Shown: piece after piece, positions 1 through 11,155 of the stretch | Position numbering within the stretch: position 1 is the first letter of the stretch | Layout: each line of letters starts with the position of its first letter | Origin: Saxibacter everestensis | Lineage (GTDB): Bacteria > Actinomycetota > Actinomycetes > Actinomycetales > Brevibacteriaceae | Length of the DNA: 64,000 nt | NCBI RefSeq assembly: GCF_025787225.1 | Contig: NZ_CP090958.1 | Span: 2,962,550 to 3,026,549 of the forward strand | Reading direction: 5' to 3' | Program-made: the position numbers and the translations under genes | The notes under the pieces: generated by a model | Database searches by the model: none | What the model was told of the DNA's origin: nothing | The model's input: the letters and a program-made list of their open reading frames with translations, nothing else

Positions 1-136
1 GGGCACCACAAGCGTCACTCTGCCATCAGGCACCTTCATCGACACGCTCACCGGTCGCACGTTCGCCGGTCAGGCCAGGCTTGCCGATGTATTCGCCGAG
101 TACCCGGTCGCCCTGCTGGCACCGGAAGGCTTCTAG
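1..136 (+). CDS. treY: Malto-oligosyltrehalose synthase, C-terminal end (partial)
   Basis: An open frame enters from the left edge (codons from base 2) and stops with TAG at 134-136, giving 45 residues that end in AEYPVALLAPEGF. TreY proteins typically finish with a beta-rich domain ending in a similar LA-x-x-PVALL stretch, and treZ follows 72 bases downstream, the usual treY-treZ order. TreY converts the reducing end of a malto-oligosaccharide into a trehalose unit for TreZ to release. The catalytic GH13 domain lies outside the window, so the call rests on the tail sequence and gene order. Confidence 0.75.
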   Translation, partial: GTTSVTLPSGTFIDTLTGRTFAGQARLADVFAEYPVALLAPEGF

Positions 137-208: not shown

Positions 209-2026
209 ATGACACAACGCAATGAGCACTCACATTTCGCCGTCTGGGCGCCGAAGCCCGAAACGGTTTCACTATTCGCCAATGGCGCCAACTATCCGAT
301 GCATCGGGCGGAAGACGGCTGGTGGACCCTCGACGACCCGAAGACCGCCAACCAGCTGCTCGCGCTGCCTGAGGTCGACTACGGCTACCTGCTCGACGGC
401 GCTTCCGATCCGCTACCCGATCCGCGCTCACGAAGGCAGCCTGCGGGCGTGCACGAGCCCTCCCGGACCTTCGACGCCGACGCCTTTCACTGGACCGATT
501 CGGCATGGCTGGGTCGCGACCTCGCCGGTGGTCTCATCTACGAGCTGCATATCGGCACCTTCACTCCGGACGGTACCTTCGATGCCGCCATCGACAAGCT
601 TCCGCACCTGAAGTCCCTCGGCGTTGACTTCGTCGAGTTACTGCCGGTCAACGCCTTCAATGGCACCCACAATTGGGGTTACGACGGTGTGCTCTGGTAC
701 GCCGTCCACGAGCAGTACGGCGGCCCGGAAGGCTACCAGCGGTTCGTTGACGCCTGCCATCGGAACGGACTCGGCGTCATCCAGGATGTTGTCTACAACC
801 ACCTGGGGCCGAGCGGAAACTACCTGCCGAACTTCGGGCCCTACCTGCACACGGCCGCGGTGAACACCTGGGGCGACTCGGTGAATCTCGACGGCCCGGA
901 CTCCGATGAGGTACGCACATACATCGTTGACAACGCGCTGATGTGGCTGCGCGACTACCACGTCGACGGCCTGCGACTGGATGCCGTGCACGCGCTCGTC
1001 GACAGCCGCGCGGTCCATATTCTCGAGGAGTTGGCAACGGCCGCAGACGAGTTGTCGACCCAGCTAGGCAGGCCGCTGAGTCTGATTGCGGAATCCGATC
1101 TGAACAACCCCCGGCTGTTCACCCCCCGCGCGTCCGGCGGGTATGGCCTGGCCGGGCAGTGGAGCGATGACTTTCACCACGCGGTGCACGTGGCAGTATC
1201 CGGCGAGACAGCGGGCTATTACGCCGACTTCGATTCGCTTGCCGCGCTCGGCAAGGTGCTCACCCGGGGCTTCTTCCACGACAACACATATTCGTCATTC
1301 CGCCGACGGCACCACGGCCGGCAGATCGACACTGTGCACACTCCCGCCTGGCGACTTGTTGTCTGCACCCAGAATCACGATCAGATCGGCAACCGGGCGG
1401 CAGGCGACCGGCTGAGCGCGATGGTCGATCCGGGCGGACTGGCGATCGCCGCGACGCTCAACCTGCTCGGTCCGTTCACGCCGATGCTGTTCATGGGCGA
1501 GGAATGGGGCGCATCGACGCCTTGGCAGTTCTTCACCTCTCATCCCGAGCCGGAGCTCGGCGAAGCTACCGCCCTGGGACGGTTACGTGAATTCGCCGAG
1601 ATGGGTTGGGACGAGTCGCTGGTGCCGAATCCGCAGGACGAGTCGACATTCACCAACTCGAAGCTCAATTGGGATGAGCCGACCGCCGACGGCCATGCCC
1701 GTTTGCTTGAGCTCTACCGGCAACTCGGCAAGTTGCGCAAGGAGCTTCCCGAGCTGCGCGACCAGCGGTTCTCGACACTCGACGTCCGGTTCGATGAGGA
1801 CGAACGCTGGCTGGTGCTGTGCCGGGACGGGGTACAGATCGCGCTGAATTTTGGCACCGGACCCGCCAGGGTACCGCTGCCGCTTGCGTCCGGCGGTCTG
1901 CTGCTGGCCACCGCCGGCGAACCAGCAGAGACAGCAGCGGAAGGCGACGGACCCGATGCAGGCCCGCTGGTGACCCTACCGGGTCGTTCTGCCGCGGTCT
2001 TCGCCGCCAGCACGGCGGATGATTAG
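209..2026 (+). CDS. treZ: Malto-oligosyltrehalose trehalohydrolase
   Basis: This 605-residue GH13 enzyme hydrolyses the bond next to the terminal trehalosyl unit made by TreY, releasing trehalose from glycogen-derived oligosaccharides in the cytoplasm. An N-terminal immunoglobulin-like domain ([12 protein letters not shown], about residues 9-20) precedes the barrel. The four GH13 motifs are visible: DVVYNHLG near 193, GLRLDAVHA with nucleophile Asp258, IAESD with acid/base Glu295, and QNHDQIGNR with Asp391. Length and spacing match the TreZ family. The gene sits directly behind the treY end and ahead of another GH13 gene, so it belongs to a trehalose/glucan cluster. The ATG at 209 has only a weak upstream purine run. 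Confidence 0.95.
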
Positions 2027-2079: not shown

Positions 2080-4434
<2,355 letters not shown>

Positions 4435-4435
4435 G

Positions 4436-4475
4436 TTACAGCACGGGGCCGGTGTGCCCTGGCCCCGTGCTGTAA
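4436..4475. terminator. Bidirectional terminator hairpin between convergent GH13 and mak-glgB genes
   Basis: Perfect 15-bp arms (4436-4450 and 4461-4475, TTACAGCACGGGGCC and its complement) enclose a 10-base loop. It begins one base after the TGA of the rightward GH13 gene and lies 30 bases beyond the stop of the leftward mak-glgB gene, so it can serve both. The GC-rich stem has A/T bases at its foot but no long U-tract, which is common in actinobacteria. Confidence 0.85.
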
Positions 4476-4504: not shown

Positions 4505-7500
4505 TTACTCGCCTGGTGTCAGGTACAGCACGCCCAATGGCGGTAGGCGCAGATCGGCGTGAGCCGGCTGGCCCATGTGGTGCCCGGCGACCGCGGTCAC
4601 CTGACCCAAGTTTCCGCTTCCTGACCCGCCATACTGCTCGGCATCGGTGTTGACCCGCTCGATCCAGGTTCCCTCGAACGGCAGAGCCAACCTGTAGCTT
4701 TCGTGCGCCATCCCGGCGAAGTTCGCAACACAGACCAGCGGTTTGTCGTCGCGGTCCCAGCGCACGAAGGACACCACATTACGAGCCGCGTCCGCACCAT
4801 CGAGCCATTGGAAGCCGCCTGGCTCGTTATCCCTTGCATACAGCGCCGGCGTGTTCCGGTAGACATCGTTGAGCGAACCGACCAACCGCTGCACACCGGA
4901 ATGCCGCGGGTCGTCGGTCAGCCACCAATCCAGGCCGTGGTCGTGCGACCATTCAGCTTCCTGGCCGAACTCGGTACCCATGAAGATCAGCTGCTTGCCG
5001 GGATGCGCCCACTGATAGGCCAGAAAGGCCCGGAGGTTCGCGAGCTGCTGCCAGCGGTCGCCCGGCATCTTGCGCAGCAGCGATCCCTTGCCGTGCACGA
5101 CCTCGTCATGGCTGATCGGCAACAGGTAGTTCTCACTGAATGCGTACACGATGGAGAACGTCAGCTGATTGTGCTGATGCTGGCGGTACAAGGGATCAGC
5201 GGAGATGTATCCGAGAGAATCGTGCATCCAGCCCATGTTCCACTTGAGGCCGAAACCGAGACCACCGCCGCTTGTCGGTGCGGTGACACCCGGGAACGCG
5301 GTCGACTCTTCGGCAATCATCAGGATTCCCGGGAAGCGACGGTAGGCCGTGGCGTTAACTTCCTGCAGGAAGCCGATGGCCTCAAGATTCTCGCGGCCAC
5401 CCTCCTTGTTCGGGCTCCACTGGCCCTCCTCGCGCGAATAGTCAAGATAGAGCATGGATGCCACGGCATCAACGCGAAGCCCGTCGATATGGAACTGATC
5501 GAACCAATACAGGGCGTTGGCGACCAGGAAGTTCCGCACCTCCCGGCGGCCGTAGTCGAAGATCAGCGTTCCCCAGTCCGGATGCTCGCCGCGCTGCGGG
5601 TCCGGGTGTTCGTACAGGGCCTCGCCGTCGAACTTCGCCAGGGCGAATTCGTCTTTCGGGAAGTGGGCAGGCACCCAATCCAGAATGACGCCGATCCCGG
5701 CCTGGTGCAGGGAATCGACCAGGAAGCGGAACTCATCGGGGTGGCCGAAGCGCGACGTCGGCGCGTAGTAGGACGTGACCTGGTAGCCCCAGGAGCCGCC
5801 GAAGGGATGTTCGGCCACCGGCATGAACTCGACGTGGGTGAAGCCGAGCTCCACCACGTAGTCGACCAGCTCAGTGGCGAGCTCACGGTACCCGAGACCG
5901 AGACGCCACGATCCTAGGTGCACCTCATAGGCGCTTACCGGAGCGTCATGCGGATTGGTCGATGAGCGCTGGGCAATCCATTCGTCGTCGTTGAATGTGT
6001 ACCGCGATTCGGTGATCACCGAACCTGTGGCCGGCGGGAGCTCGGTGCCGAACGCCATCGGGTCGGCTTTCTGCAGCCACTGGCCGTGGCGGCTGAGGAT
6101 CTCGAACTTGTAGGCGTTGCCCACCCCGACTCCCGGAATGAATAGCTCCCAGACTCCGGATGAGCCGAGCGAGCGCATGGCATGGCCGACGCCGTTCCAG
6201 CCGTTGAAGTCGCCGACCACCCGGACAGCCTGGGCAGCTGGCGCCCATACCGCGAAGCTCGTCCCGCTGATGTCGCCCTGGTTGCCGGGATAACGGCGTG
6301 GGTGGGCGCCGAGTACGGTCCAGAGTTCCTCATGGCGTCCCTCGCCGATCAGGTGCAGATCCATTTCGCCCAACGTGGGCACGAAACGATAAGGATCGTC
6401 GGTGACGTGCAGGTCGTCGTCGATGTAGCTGGTTTCGAGCCGATACTCCGGAATCAGGCCGTCGGCGGGACGGAATGCGGCGCTGAAGATGCCGCCGTAC
6501 TCATGCGTGAGCGGAATCGTTTCGGTTGGCGTCCGGGCGACAACGGATTTCGCCAGATGCTTACAAGCACGAATAGTTACAGTGCCGTCGGCGTCCTGAT
6601 GCGCGCCAAGGACGGAGTGCGGGTTGTGATAGCTGCCGTCCGACACTCGCTGCAGGACGTCCTGCGAGACCGGGCGCGGGCTGGGCGAGCCGGAAAACTC
6701 GGGATCAGACTCCGCGTCAGCCATGTCGGTGCCGTCATTCTCAAACCCGGACTCGGACTCGGACGCTTCAGGCGCTGCCGCCTCAGCAGGCGACCCAACC
6801 GCTTCACTGTCAGCCGTGGTGTCGGCCGCGACCTCCGCCCGACCCGCTTCTTCGGCCTCCGGCTTGGCTGCTTCAGCGGCCGGCCCGCCGGTGACTTCGG
6901 ATTCGTTATTCAATATCGCTCCTACTGAACGTAATGGGACCTGGAGCCAGTTCGGCCGGTTTCGCAGCTCGTAGACAACCTCATACAGTGCCTTATCCAA
7001 CCAGTACACCCGCAACAGCGGGTCGGTACCGATCGCTGGCTGGCCGGATTCTCGAGCATAACCGTCGAGGAAAGCCGCCGACGCTTTTTGCGCCCAGGCG
7101 GCGGTGCGCTTGGACACCACGTCGCGTGACGCGGGGTCCGGGTCTTCCAGTGCGACGAAATTCGCCGCGTAGTCGAAGGACCGAAGAATGCCGACGACGT
7201 CCCGCAGCGGAACGTCAGGGTGCGAACGCTCCGACAACGGTCGCAGCGGCTCGCCTTCGAAGTCCAGCACCACCCAGCCACGCGCCTCGGAGTGCAGCAC
7301 CTGGCCGAGGTGCAGATCGCCGTGGATTCGCTGCACCATGCCGACGTTGTCGATATCCCCCAGCCGGCTGATGTGTTCGTGGAGCTGCTCGTTATATGGC
7401 GACAGCACATCACGCGCCTCCGACAGCGCCCACAACACACGCTTCTGCAGGCCGTCAACGATGCGACCCGTTTGCGCCGGCCCTGGATGTCGCGCTCCAA

Positions 7501-8302
7501 AGACATCTGAAAGTGTTTTGTGGATGCGTGCCACCGCGATGCCGAGCTGATCCGCGGGTTCGCTGAAGTCCAGGTCGAGCTGCGCTGCCTGTACCGCTGC
7601 GGCCCAGGCATCGGTCGAGCCGGCAATGAATTCGGAGAGCACCGCGAAATGCCCGGACTCCTCCTTAAGCGAAACAGGATTGAACCACTTTCCCTCCAGC
7701 CATCCCATTGTCTGCGGCACGGAGGTACAGCTGGCGGCACTGAGCGCTGCAGTTACCTCAACGTCCGGGTTTGCTCCAGCTGACAGCACCCGAAAGAGTT
7801 TCAGGATTGCGGGCGCGGAGCGGTCCGAAATGACGATCGAGCTATTCGACTGCTCCCCGGTAATGACTTTGGTCGGCGCACCGGTAATGGTTGGCTGCTG
7901 GATACCGGCCACGGTACGGCCGGCGAGTTTCCGGTCGGCATGTGTACGCCCGCTGGTGATCAGCGAGGCGATCGCCCGGACGAACTCCGGGTCGTGCACA
8001 CCATCGTAAACGTGGCGCCGGCCGAGGGTTATGTCATCGACTTCGCCGAGGTACGCGGAATCAGGCGCGTCGAGTCGCGAGACCCGAAACGTCAACGGCA
8101 CCTGAATTATGTCCATCCGGTCACCCGAATCGAGCATCAGGATGTGGTTCCTGCCGGTTACTGCGTCGCCCGCGAGCGCACGATCGAAAACCTGCACCGA
8201 CGACAATGCGGAAATGGAGATCCCGCGTCCCTTAGCCGGAAACCAGCGCTGTGCAGGCAGCCAGGAATGCAGAAGCCGTTGTAGTTCGCCGCTAACTGAC
8301 AT
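4505..8302 (-). CDS. glgB: Maltokinase-glycogen branching enzyme fusion protein
   Basis: One uninterrupted frame of about 1265 residues joins two enzymes. Residues 1 to about 470 form an aminoglycoside-phosphotransferase-fold maltokinase (Mak/Pep2), with the ATP-site region [12 protein letters not shown] near 150, catalytic HGDLHLGQ near 329 and metal-binding DFEGEP near 349. An acidic Ala/Glu-rich linker (about 475-545) leads to a full GlgB with [17 protein letters not shown] (nucleophile Asp), MIAEEST (Glu) and ISHDEVVHG. The first half makes maltose-1-phosphate from maltose and ATP; the second adds alpha-1,6 branches to the glucan that GlgE builds. The ATG at 8302 has AGAAGGGG five to six bases upstream; a GTG at 8308 is in frame but touches the ribosome site. 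It lies 130 bases downstream of glgE. Confidence 0.93.
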
Positions 8303-8437: not shown

Positions 8438-10495
8438 TCAAGGACGGCTCCTGATCTGCAGGATGTGCGCCGGTTCGCTGCGCGGATCGAGCCGCACATA
8501 ATTGTGTTCGCTCCAGAACCAGGTTTGGTCGGTCAGCAGGTCGTGAACCTCGAACTCGGTCGGCGTCCCCGCCAGCGACGTGTCGCCCGGAAACAGCTCC
8601 TCGAGGTCGAGGTGCACGATTGTATCTCGGGTGGCGTGCGGATCCAGGTTGATAACCACGATCAGCGCATCGTCGTCCTTGCGTTTCGAGTACACCAGAA
8701 TGGACTCATCATCGGCGTCGTGCAGTCGGATGTTGCGCAGGTCTCCGAGGGCCGGGTGTTCCTTCCGGATCGCGTTCAGCCGTCGGAGGTACGGCGCGAG
8801 TGAACGACCGTCCGCCTCTGCGGCATCGAAGTCACGAGGGCGGTACTGATACTTCTCATTATCGATGTACTCCTCTGCGCCGGGACGCGGCACATGCTCG
8901 TACAGTTCATAGCCGGCATAGACACCCCAGAGCGGACTCGAAGTAGCGGCCAGGACGGCGCGGATCTTGAATCCGGCCGGCCCACTGAATTGCAGGTACT
9001 CGGTAAGGATGTCGGGGGTGTTGACGAAGAAGTTCGGTCGCAGGAAAGCACCAGATTCGTCACGGAGTTCGGCGAGGTACTCCTCAAGTTCCTCCCGGGT
9101 GTTCCGCCAGGTGAAGTACGAGTAGGACTGCTGGAAGCCAAGCTTGGCCAGCGCATGCATCATCGGCGGCCGGGTGAATGCCTCGGCAAGGAAGATCACG
9201 TCCGGATGTCTGTCATTCACCGTGGCGATCAGCCATTCCCAGAACATCACCGGTTTGGTGTGCGGATTGTCGACGCGGAAGATTTTCACGCCATGGTCGA
9301 TCCAGAGTTCGACGATCCGCAACACCTCGCGGCTGAGGCCTTCGAAGTCGTTGTCGAAGTTCAGCGGGTAGATGTCCTGGTATTTCTTCGGCGGGTTCTC
9401 CGCATAGGCGATGGTGCCGTCGAGCTGGGTGGTGAACCACTCGGGATTGCTTTTCACCCATGGGTGGTCCGGGGCAGCCTGCAGGGCGAGATCCAGGGCC
9501 ACTTCGAGGCCGAGCTGATTCGCGCGTGCGACGAATTCGTCGAAGTCAGCGAAGTCGCCCAGGTCGGGATGGATCGCATCGTGACCGCCGTAACGGGAAC
9601 CAATTGCCCATGGCGATCCCGGGTCCTTAGGCCCGGGGTTCAGCGTGTTATTCGGTCCTTTTCGGTTGACTTCACCGATCGGATGGATGGGCGGCAGGTA
9701 AATGACGTCGAAGCCCATGTCCGCCACCGCGCCGAGGCGCTTTGCCGCCGTCCGGAAGGTGCCGGAAACCCACTCGCCGGTCTCTTCGTCCTGCTTCGCA
9801 CCTTCAGAGCGCGGAAAGAACTCATACCAGCTGGCCCGTCCGGCAAGCTCTCGCTCGACGTTCAACGGCATCCGCTTGCTGACGCTGATCAGGTCTCGCA
9901 ATGGATGCGCGACGATCGCCGATTTCACCTGCGCAGTGGTCGCGGCGGCAAGCCGGTCGGCGGCTGGCAGTGCCGCGGAGTTGAGGGTGTTTATCGCATC
10001 GGCCAAGACGGCTCGATGCTCGAAGGTGCGGTCACCCTGCTGCTCGGCGTCGGTGAGCAGCTGCAACCCCTCGGCGAGCATCAGGTCGACATCGACTCCG
10101 GCGGGGATCTTCAGAGTTGCCGCGTGTTCCCACGTCGCGTAGAGATCTGCCCACGCCTCGATGACGAAGCTGTAGTGACCGGCCTTCTCCGGCCGAAAGG
10201 TTCCGACAAACCGGTCGGTGCCCGGGATGCTCTCCTGCAGACGGATCCGGTCGGCTTCTTCCCCGGCGCCATCGAGCAGGACAGCATTCACGCCGATCAG
10301 GTCGTGCCCCTCACGAAATACCGTAGCGGCAAGCGGGATGTCTTCGTTCACGGTGGATTTGGCGGGGAAGGCGCCGCCGTCGACTACTGGTTGTATTTCG
10401 GTTATGACGATTCGGTCATAGTGCAGCCGTTGGCTGTCGGGACTGGGCGCTGCTGAAAATCTGGTCACAGTTACGACCGTATCGACAATACGCAC
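8438..10495 (-). CDS. glgE: Alpha-1,4-glucan:maltose-1-phosphate maltosyltransferase
   Basis: This 685-residue GH13_3 enzyme transfers maltosyl units from maltose-1-phosphate to the non-reducing end of alpha-1,4-glucans. The N-terminal domain (RIVITEIQPVVDGGAFPAK) is typical of GlgE. The barrel shows YLPPIHPIG, IFRVDNPHTKP with the nucleophile Asp, FLAEAFTRPPMM with the general acid Glu, and the conserved YSYFTWRN. The length is that of the family. It is the probable supplier of linear glucan to the GlgB half of the downstream fusion protein. The longest frame begins with GTG at 10495. No strong ribosome site is seen there, and a second GTG at 10468 is possible. Confidence 0.95.
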   Translation of the reverse strand: MRIVDTVVTVTRFSAAPSPDSQRLHYDRIVITEIQPVVDGGAFPAKSTVNEDIPLAATVFREGHDLIGVNAVLLDGAGEEADRIRLQESIPGTDRFVGTFRPEKAGHYSFVIEAWADLYATWEHAATLKIPAGVDVDLMLAEGLQLLTDAEQQGDRTFEHRAVLADAINTLNSAALPAADRLAAATTAQVKSAIVAHPLRDLISVSKRMPLNVERELAGRASWYEFFPRSEGAKQDEETGEWVSGTFRTAAKRLGAVADMGFDVIYLPPIHPIGEVNRKGPNNTLNPGPKDPGSPWAIGSRYGGHDAIHPDLGDFADFDEFVARANQLGLEVALDLALQAAPDHPWVKSNPEWFTTQLDGTIAYAENPPKKYQDIYPLNFDNDFEGLSREVLRIVELWIDHGVKIFRVDNPHTKPVMFWEWLIATVNDRHPDVIFLAEAFTRPPMMHALAKLGFQQSYSYFTWRNTREELEEYLAELRDESGAFLRPNFFVNTPDILTEYLQFSGPAGFKIRAVLAATSSPLWGVYAGYELYEHVPRPGAEEYIDNEKYQYRPRDFDAAEADGRSLAPYLRRLNAIRKEHPALGDLRNIRLHDADDESILVYSKRKDDDALIVVINLDPHATRDTIVHLDLEELFPGDTSLAGTPTEFEVHDLLTDQTWFWSEHNYVRLDPRSEPAHILQIRSRP

Positions 10496-10547: not shown

Positions 10548-11006
10548 TTATTCCTCGTCGATCACGTGCATCGCCGCTTCCTCGGCTCCAGCGGCACCGC
10601 CGTCGATGCCGACGTCCTCGGCGAGCACATCGTCCTCGGTTTCGCCGCCAAGTCCGCTGTGGTCAGTGAGCCGACCGGCGCGTTCCGTGCCGACTTCCCC
10701 GCCGACATAATCGCCGTCGGTAAATGCGCGCTGATCTTCGTCGGCCGCGAGTTCGTCGAAGTCTGGCTCCTCGGTTTCGAGCCGGTGGTCGAGCGTTTCG
10801 CCGTTGCGTTCATCGTCCTCGGTATAACCCTCACGCGTCATCACCGAAGGACGTTCGGGTGGCGAGTACCCCTCGTCAAGCAGGTCATCGACTCCGCGAT
10901 CCTCCAGAGTGTCCTCAGAAGACAACTGATTGGAGTCGCCCGAAGCGGCCTGGCCCGGGATGTTAGCCTCCGAACCGTCATCCTGATTCGTGGTGTTCTC
11001 ACTCAT
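10548..11006 (-). CDS. DUF5709 family acidic protein
   Basis: A 152-residue, strongly acidic and probably disordered protein rich in Asp, Glu and Gly. The segment DDLLDEGYSPPERPS followed by REGYT, ETLDHRLETEEPD and a C-terminal EEAAMHVIDE matches my memory of the actinobacterial DUF5709 family, whose function is unknown. The ATG at 11006 is preceded at eight bases by GAGGAG; a GTG nine bases upstream is in frame but overlaps the ribosome site. It is 52 bases upstream of glgE on the same strand, so co-transcription is possible. There are no membrane segments or catalytic motifs. Confidence 0.75.
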   Translation of the reverse strand: MSENTTNQDDGSEANIPGQAASGDSNQLSSEDTLEDRGVDDLLDEGYSPPERPSVMTREGYTEDDERNGETLDHRLETEEPDFDELAADEDQRAFTDGDYVGGEVGTERAGRLTDHSGLGGETEDDVLAEDVGIDGGAAGAEEAAMHVIDEE

Positions 11007-11155
11007 CGTGCTCACTCCTCATTCGAGATAGAAACCGCTGCTGTCACCTGCGACCCTACGACCGTGCGGGACAGTCCGCAATCGGCTCAGCTATCGATGG
11101 CGAATACCCCGCGAGACGGTGCTGCGCCGTCCCGGCAGGATGGCAGACTAATGGT

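Follow-up and report, generated by a model that had tools for sequence, protein, structure and literature searches.

A fused maltokinase–branching enzyme gene with a predicted internal glgB start, beside a stutzeri-type trehalose synthase gene, in Saxibacter everestensis

The window analysed here, a stretch of 64,000 nucleotides from contig NZ_CP090958.1 of Saxibacter everestensis, carries a frame in which a maltokinase (Mak) and a glycogen branching enzyme (GlgB) are joined. The explanation that we favour, and regard as probable, is that loss of a stop codon gave a bifunctional Mak-GlgB and that a retained internal start additionally gives free GlgB; use of this start, the route to fusion and the role of the products are deduced from sequence. 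In the proposed pathway a trehalose synthase (TreS) of the stutzeri type would convert trehalose to maltose, the Mak half would make maltose 1-phosphate from the maltose, GlgE would polymerise maltose 1-phosphate and the GlgB half would branch the glucan chain. The stop codon would have been lost between adjacent or overlapping mak and glgB genes, leaving the glgB ribosome-binding site and start codon inside the fused frame, and the one frame would give Mak-GlgB plus extra GlgB. We consider two points worth following: the glgB start kept inside the frame, and the alternative TreS.

Table 1. Features of the mak-glgB locus (positions in the window)
Feature	Position	Strand	Basis or remark
treY, 3' end	1..136	+	TIGR02401, 834.9 bits; remainder of treY upstream, outside the window (locus L027)
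treZ	209..2026	+	TIGR02402, 758.7 bits
Stutzeri-type trehalose synthase (maltose alpha-D-glucosyltransferase)	2080..4434	+	TIGR02455; convergent with mak-glgB
G+C-rich hairpin, 17 bp	4436..4475		Between convergent treS and mak-glgB; possible two-way terminator
mak-glgB fused gene	4505..8302	-	1265 aa from ATG 8302; GTG 8308 is an alternative start
GlgB half (GlgB_N, CBM48, GH13, C-terminal domain)	4505..6667	-	Pfam; match to 3k1d
Predicted second product: free 802-aa GlgB, acidic linker as N-terminal tail	4505..6913	-	Predicted
Acidic linker, 79 aa	6668..6904	-	Composition: 21 D/E, 3 K/R
Maltokinase half (N-cap and kinase)	6905..8302	-	Pfam PF18085; phmmer to 5jy7, 4u94, 4o7o
Predicted internal TTG start of free GlgB	6911..6913	-	In frame with the fusion
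Predicted internal Shine-Dalgarno AGGAG	6919..6923	-	Near the end of the Mak half; TAGGAGCGATATTG at 6911-6924
glgE	8438..10495	-	PF11896, PF21702; 3zss/4u2y; same strand as mak-glgB, upstream

Frame 4505-8302 has no internal stop codon, and a Shine-Dalgarno (SD) sequence, GAGAAGGGG, with a duplex energy of -9.5 lies upstream of its ATG. The Pfam domains follow in the order Mak_N_cap, GlgB_N, CBM_48, Alpha-amylase and Alpha-amylase_C, each over its cut-off, with Mak_N_cap at residues 16-106 and the GlgB_N, CBM_48, GH13 and C-terminal domains from residue 549 on (numbering from the GTG start). The Mak half aligns to the three solved maltokinases in Table 1 through the HGDLHLGQ and DFEGEP motifs, and it is on the alignment of N-cap and catalytic motifs with solved Mak, with the invariant columns checked, that it is classed as a maltokinase; the GlgB half aligns to 3k1d over 714 residues with 974 bits. 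The preliminary description of this DNA had read a single frame with an intact Mak, an intact GlgB and an acidic linker, and this was confirmed by the open reading frame, the Pfam domains, the structure-family alignments and the motifs it quoted, which lie at residues 327, 347, 941, 995 and 1063. We conclude that the gene encodes a putative bifunctional Mak-GlgB of the GlgE pathway, with both enzyme activities predicted. A stop or frameshift in the linker, raised in that description as a possibility, was not found. We give almost no credence to an assembly error, in which mak and glgB would in truth be separated by a stop or frameshift: the same frame is present in the other three genomes of the window's clade and in many others, and the occurrence in four clade genomes is therefore not a sequencing slip.

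Upstream of treY, outside the window in locus L027, lies glgX (TIGR02100, 1028 bits). It can be seen in Table 1 that glgE, mak and glgB stand together, as in a GlgE-pathway locus, and the locus does cover the route from trehalose to branched glucan, as had been proposed; of the treYZ pair named in that description, treY lies mostly outside the window. The hairpin between treS and mak-glgB is not one of the three terminator-like sites that were called (shuffle mean 4.1). Directly upstream of glgE on the same strand is an acidic open frame of 155 aa (10548-11015, minus strand) that matches DUF5709 with 64.4 bits. Near glgX, upstream of the window, a 306-aa open frame (L027 3018-3938, minus strand) contains runs of DERDERGLDSDERDERG-like repeats, with a PRC-barrel match over cut-off and a DUF2382 match just below it.

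The Mak-GlgB architecture is ordinary and not new. A model of this shape, 1224 aa long, is already in NCBIfam: NF011293 (PRK14705), named '1,4-alpha-glucan branching enzyme', which resembles the window protein in its long N-terminal part before GlgB and in having both halves in one chain, Mak then GlgB; its name is silent on the kinase, and the window protein, which matches it in two stretches with 1661.7 bits, under the cut-off of 2376, is not filed under this equivalog. Among 198 genomes of the order, 145 had a Mak-like match and 186 a GlgB match, and loci were retrieved for part of the matching genomes, mostly those with the better Mak matches. Mak and GlgB shared one frame in 42 of the 81 loci retrieved first. 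glgE and mak occurred together in 95 of 103 loci (two from the family sample), and 43 of these 95 had the fused frame; many related bacteria share the architecture, for which a genome search had been suggested. The proportion is higher among named loci (62 of 80), which are biased toward relatives because they are the best matches to the Mak alignment. Six of 12 loci inspected in a phylum sample of 296 genomes, picked mostly for long frames, were fused, and the order glgE-treS-mak-glgB is common (97 of the 106 fused loci tallied).

Named fused loci in Arthrobacter, Pseudarthrobacter, Paenarthrobacter, Tersicoccus, Sinomonas, Kocuria and others resemble the window in having Mak then GlgB in one frame; they differ in that 61 of the 62 have a canonical treS (the remaining one is a 3.7-kb contig), where the window has the stutzeri type, and in that their internal start is mostly ATG or GTG, where the window has TTG. 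Stop-to-stop frames of 1853-1993 aa had suggested a triple TreS-Mak-GlgB fusion, which we rejected because canonical TreS, where present, lies in another frame. Within the window's own family the cluster is sporadic: the fused gene is found in five, and the stutzeri-type TreS in four, of 60 genomes. When fused and split states are mapped on a Mak tree with 83 rows, 12 changes are required, and starred branches force ten of these; next to the window's clade is a second clade that is mostly fused (9 of 10 rows). In the literature searched we found no described Mak-GlgB fusion, though a 2011 survey of the links between glycogen and trehalose may mention one; nor did that literature describe an internal glgB start or a stutzeri-type TreS in the GlgE pathway.

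An AlphaFold model of residues 1-758, made with 12 sequences, has a mean pLDDT of 71.5, falling below 50 at residues 468-510 and 512-537, and the linker is accordingly modelled as disordered. Its length varies from 4 to 309 aa, with a median of 28, across 108 fused frames. Among split mak and glgB pairs the stop and start codons overlap as GTGA in 12 of 58, most others are close together and six are more than 2 kb apart; most of the overlapping pairs have, by eye, an AGGAG-like site. Given these overlaps, genes that adjoin or overlap and then lose the stop between them are the simpler account of the disordered, variable linker, the repeated changes of state and the retained GlgB starts, and linker disorder and length, together with the spacing of split pairs, favour chance stop loss between coupled genes over a designed channel. 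The same facts may be compatible with co-localisation.

It had been proposed that the fusion points to substrate channelling through a GlgE-containing complex, with Mak-GlgB as a scaffold for GlgE: GlgE would receive maltose 1-phosphate directly, and GlgB the newly made chain. That glgE adjoins mak-glgB and that the gene order given above is so common speak for this; we nonetheless find it unsupported and consider it very improbable, given a disordered linker of widely varying length, about 12 switches between the fused and the split state on the tree, and the presence of start sites for free GlgB. A review also argues against channelling in the TreS:Pep2 complex (PMC11046441). TreS-Mak (TreS-Pep2) enzymes and the mycobacterial TreS:Pep2 complex are similar to the present case in that Mak is bound, covalently or tightly, to a second enzyme of the GlgE pathway; there the partner is TreS, on the N-side of Mak, whereas in the window Mak has GlgB on its C-side and canonical TreS is missing. 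The further statement that TreS-Mak fusions are well known in actinobacteria is off: two papers describe this fusion as the usual arrangement, with actinobacteria such as mycobacteria and streptomycetes as exceptions (PMC11046441, PMC7935935).

We then turn to the evidence for an internal glgB start, for which the 108 fused frames, which include some genomes twice, were reduced to 44 representatives by greedy dereplication (Mak identity <70%); the six phylum-level fusions were left out of this SD test. An in-frame ATG or GTG with an SD energy of -7 or below was present in the linker of 35 of the 44. This compares with means of 6.8 (maximum 13) for in-domain starts, 10.2 (maximum 16) for codon-shuffled linkers and 24.2 (maximum 29) for synonymous resampling, over 100 runs each. 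The threshold was relaxed from -7 to -6.5 after the TTG site of the window's clade had been seen, and -6.5, -7 and -8 were all computed: with ATG, GTG or TTG at -6.5 or below a site was found in 37 frames (control mean 11.4, maximum 18), leaving seven of the 44 without one, and at -8 in 19 (control mean 4.9, maximum 10). Ranked for structure against windows of their own frame, the 37 sites are less structured than 95% of these at the median, as compared with 40% for 245 in-domain decoys with equally strong SD sequences (p 4e-17) and 31% for random other linker positions.

Many linkers of fused frames carry start signals like those of glgB, for example GGAAGGTAACAAAATG. Before dereplication, 44 of the 108 frames carry the linker motif EGxxM, a count that does not represent 44 independent events because the loci are related; its glutamate is encoded by GAA in 43 and its glycine by GGT in 44, and across those frames GAA makes up 0.47 of Glu codons and GGT 0.15 of Gly codons. 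A conserved in-frame SD and start codon are thus found beyond chance, this being post hoc for the TTG of the window's clade. That GlgB retains its own ribosome-binding site and start codon in most fused frames looks new. Bacterial genes with two in-frame starts giving a long and a short product include infB and clpB. mak-glgB would resemble these in making two proteins with a common C-terminus from one frame; the difference is that its predicted short form would be the whole product of a formerly separate gene.

In the window's clade the first SD scan found no ATG or GTG site reaching -7 in the linkers of any of the four genomes, and an initial reading of the fusion as obligate in this clade was dropped once a TTG site had been seen; this site is therefore a post hoc finding. 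The sequence AGGAG-CGATA-TTG closes the Mak half, and the same 14 bases (TAGGAGCGATATTG) are present in all four genomes, with duplex energies of -6.5 to -6.8. One of 20 in-domain TTG codons in these genomes reaches an equal SD, which counts against the site. The site includes several rare codons (ATA 3%, GTA 3%, CTA 2% and TTG 5% of the codons for their residues). For codon rarity it takes third place among 1205 five-codon windows, and it is the only one of the top three in which four of the five codons agree in every genome. Local G+C is 0.43, as compared with 0.63 for the window's frame, and in all four genomes the local value falls below that of 98-100% of windows.

Against use of the internal start stand the weakness of TTG as a start codon, the modest energy of -6.5, the seven frames without a site, the drop to 19 of 44 at -8 and the 24 of 44 sites that synonymous resampling by itself retains; part of the rare-codon stretch may moreover be drift, as it begins several codons before the SD. 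These points bear on the rival reading that only full-length Mak-GlgB is made, the internal start being a fossil glgB start or the outcome of amino-acid constraint, and the fusion serving to fix the ratio of kinase to branching enzyme. This reading, which gains from the weakness of TTG, from linkers in the clade of 42-77 aa against the median of 28 and from the 0/4 result for ATG and GTG, we regard as the unlikely one: the SD and TTG are written largely in rare codons and are kept in all four genomes though identity of the Mak half to that of the window is no more than 77-84% in the other three, and sites across fused frames are unstructured beyond their matched decoys. From the retained start signals we infer that ribosomes also initiate inside the frame, in the window at TTG 6913. 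Given the retained, unstructured sites and the conserved rare-codon site, we conclude that the gene probably yields both Mak-GlgB and the free 802-aa GlgB, by conserved start signals.

The second point concerns TreS. The window gene belongs to TIGR02455, 'TreS_stutzeri' (903.6 bits, cut-off 719.4; 903.8 bits in the genome-wide search). What had been called a TreS-like gene is accordingly a predicted trehalose synthase; it is of this separate family and is not a piece split from TreS-Mak. No canonical TreS (TIGR02456) over cut-off was found in the same genome, the best match having 220.6 bits against a cut-off of 678.35. Among the 198 genomes of the order, TIGR02455 is over cut-off in 30 and canonical TreS in 113, and the window's own genome has TIGR02455 only.

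Sixteen of the 95 glgE and mak loci are without canonical treS, and stutzeri-type TreS is encoded in 15 of those 16 genomes, as compared with 15 of the 79 with a canonical treS (naive Fisher 1.9e-8). The tree-aware test of this association was not significant: independent pairs gave means of 2.9 in the same direction, 0.3 in the opposite direction and 2.9 with no difference. Absence of canonical TreS needs six changes on the Mak tree, and showed no association there with fusion (6 of the 16 loci are fused). All 16 were also without TIGR02456 over cut-off genome-wide (14 by best E-values; G237 and G242 checked separately), and GH13 relatives below cut-off are present in genomes lacking canonical TreS, for example at 514.8 bits in G190. 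The one exception, G242, is of the same family as the window and has glgE, fused mak-glgB and treYZ (L280, 6829-17398), with neither TreS family over cut-off.

Stutzeri-type treS lies inside the cluster in all four genomes of the window's clade. In other genomes, 18 stretches of 9.7-17 kb around stutzeri-type treS contained none of the pathway genes searched for, save one Mak-like gene in G167. There (L277, 6897-10212) the treS is convergent with the stand-alone Mak-like gene, and glgE is not in the stretch. Enzymes of this type have been characterised from P. stutzeri and other Pseudomonas and are about 20-30% identical to several other TreS; they have been studied as free industrial enzymes, from P. 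stutzeri CJ38 and P. monteilii (697 aa, 76 kDa), the latter presumably also in TIGR02455 because it is 71% identical to the P. stutzeri enzyme (PMC9705850). The window gene shares their family and differs in lying inside a GlgE-pathway cluster. These findings suggest that stutzeri-type TreS stands in for canonical TreS, which, as far as the available literature goes, looks new.

Maltose 1-phosphate may also have a second source in this organism. Far from the window (G000:C1:1413645-1416052), glgC (443 bits) is divergent from a gene of the glgA_Coryne family (576 bits), a family that we take to include the maltose-1-phosphate synthase GlgM.

On balance we lean towards extending the dual-product reading to Mak-GlgB across the Actinomycetota: stop loss would have given a bifunctional enzyme, and selection would have kept the internal site for excess free GlgB, accompanied in the window's clade by stutzeri-type TreS replacing canonical TreS in a compact glgX-treYZ-treS / glgE-mak-glgB cluster. 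Recognition of the stutzeri type corrects a naive reading of the GlgE pathway as incomplete in these bacteria, and the enzyme that opens the pathway in them is suggested by the distinct TreS family that recurs where canonical TreS is absent. Gene fusions are often taken as evidence of channelling; here the fusion has been gained or lost many times between neighbours, with the start of the second enzyme mostly kept. If our reading is true, the fusion would, through the retained start, be a device for expression no less than an enzyme with two functions.
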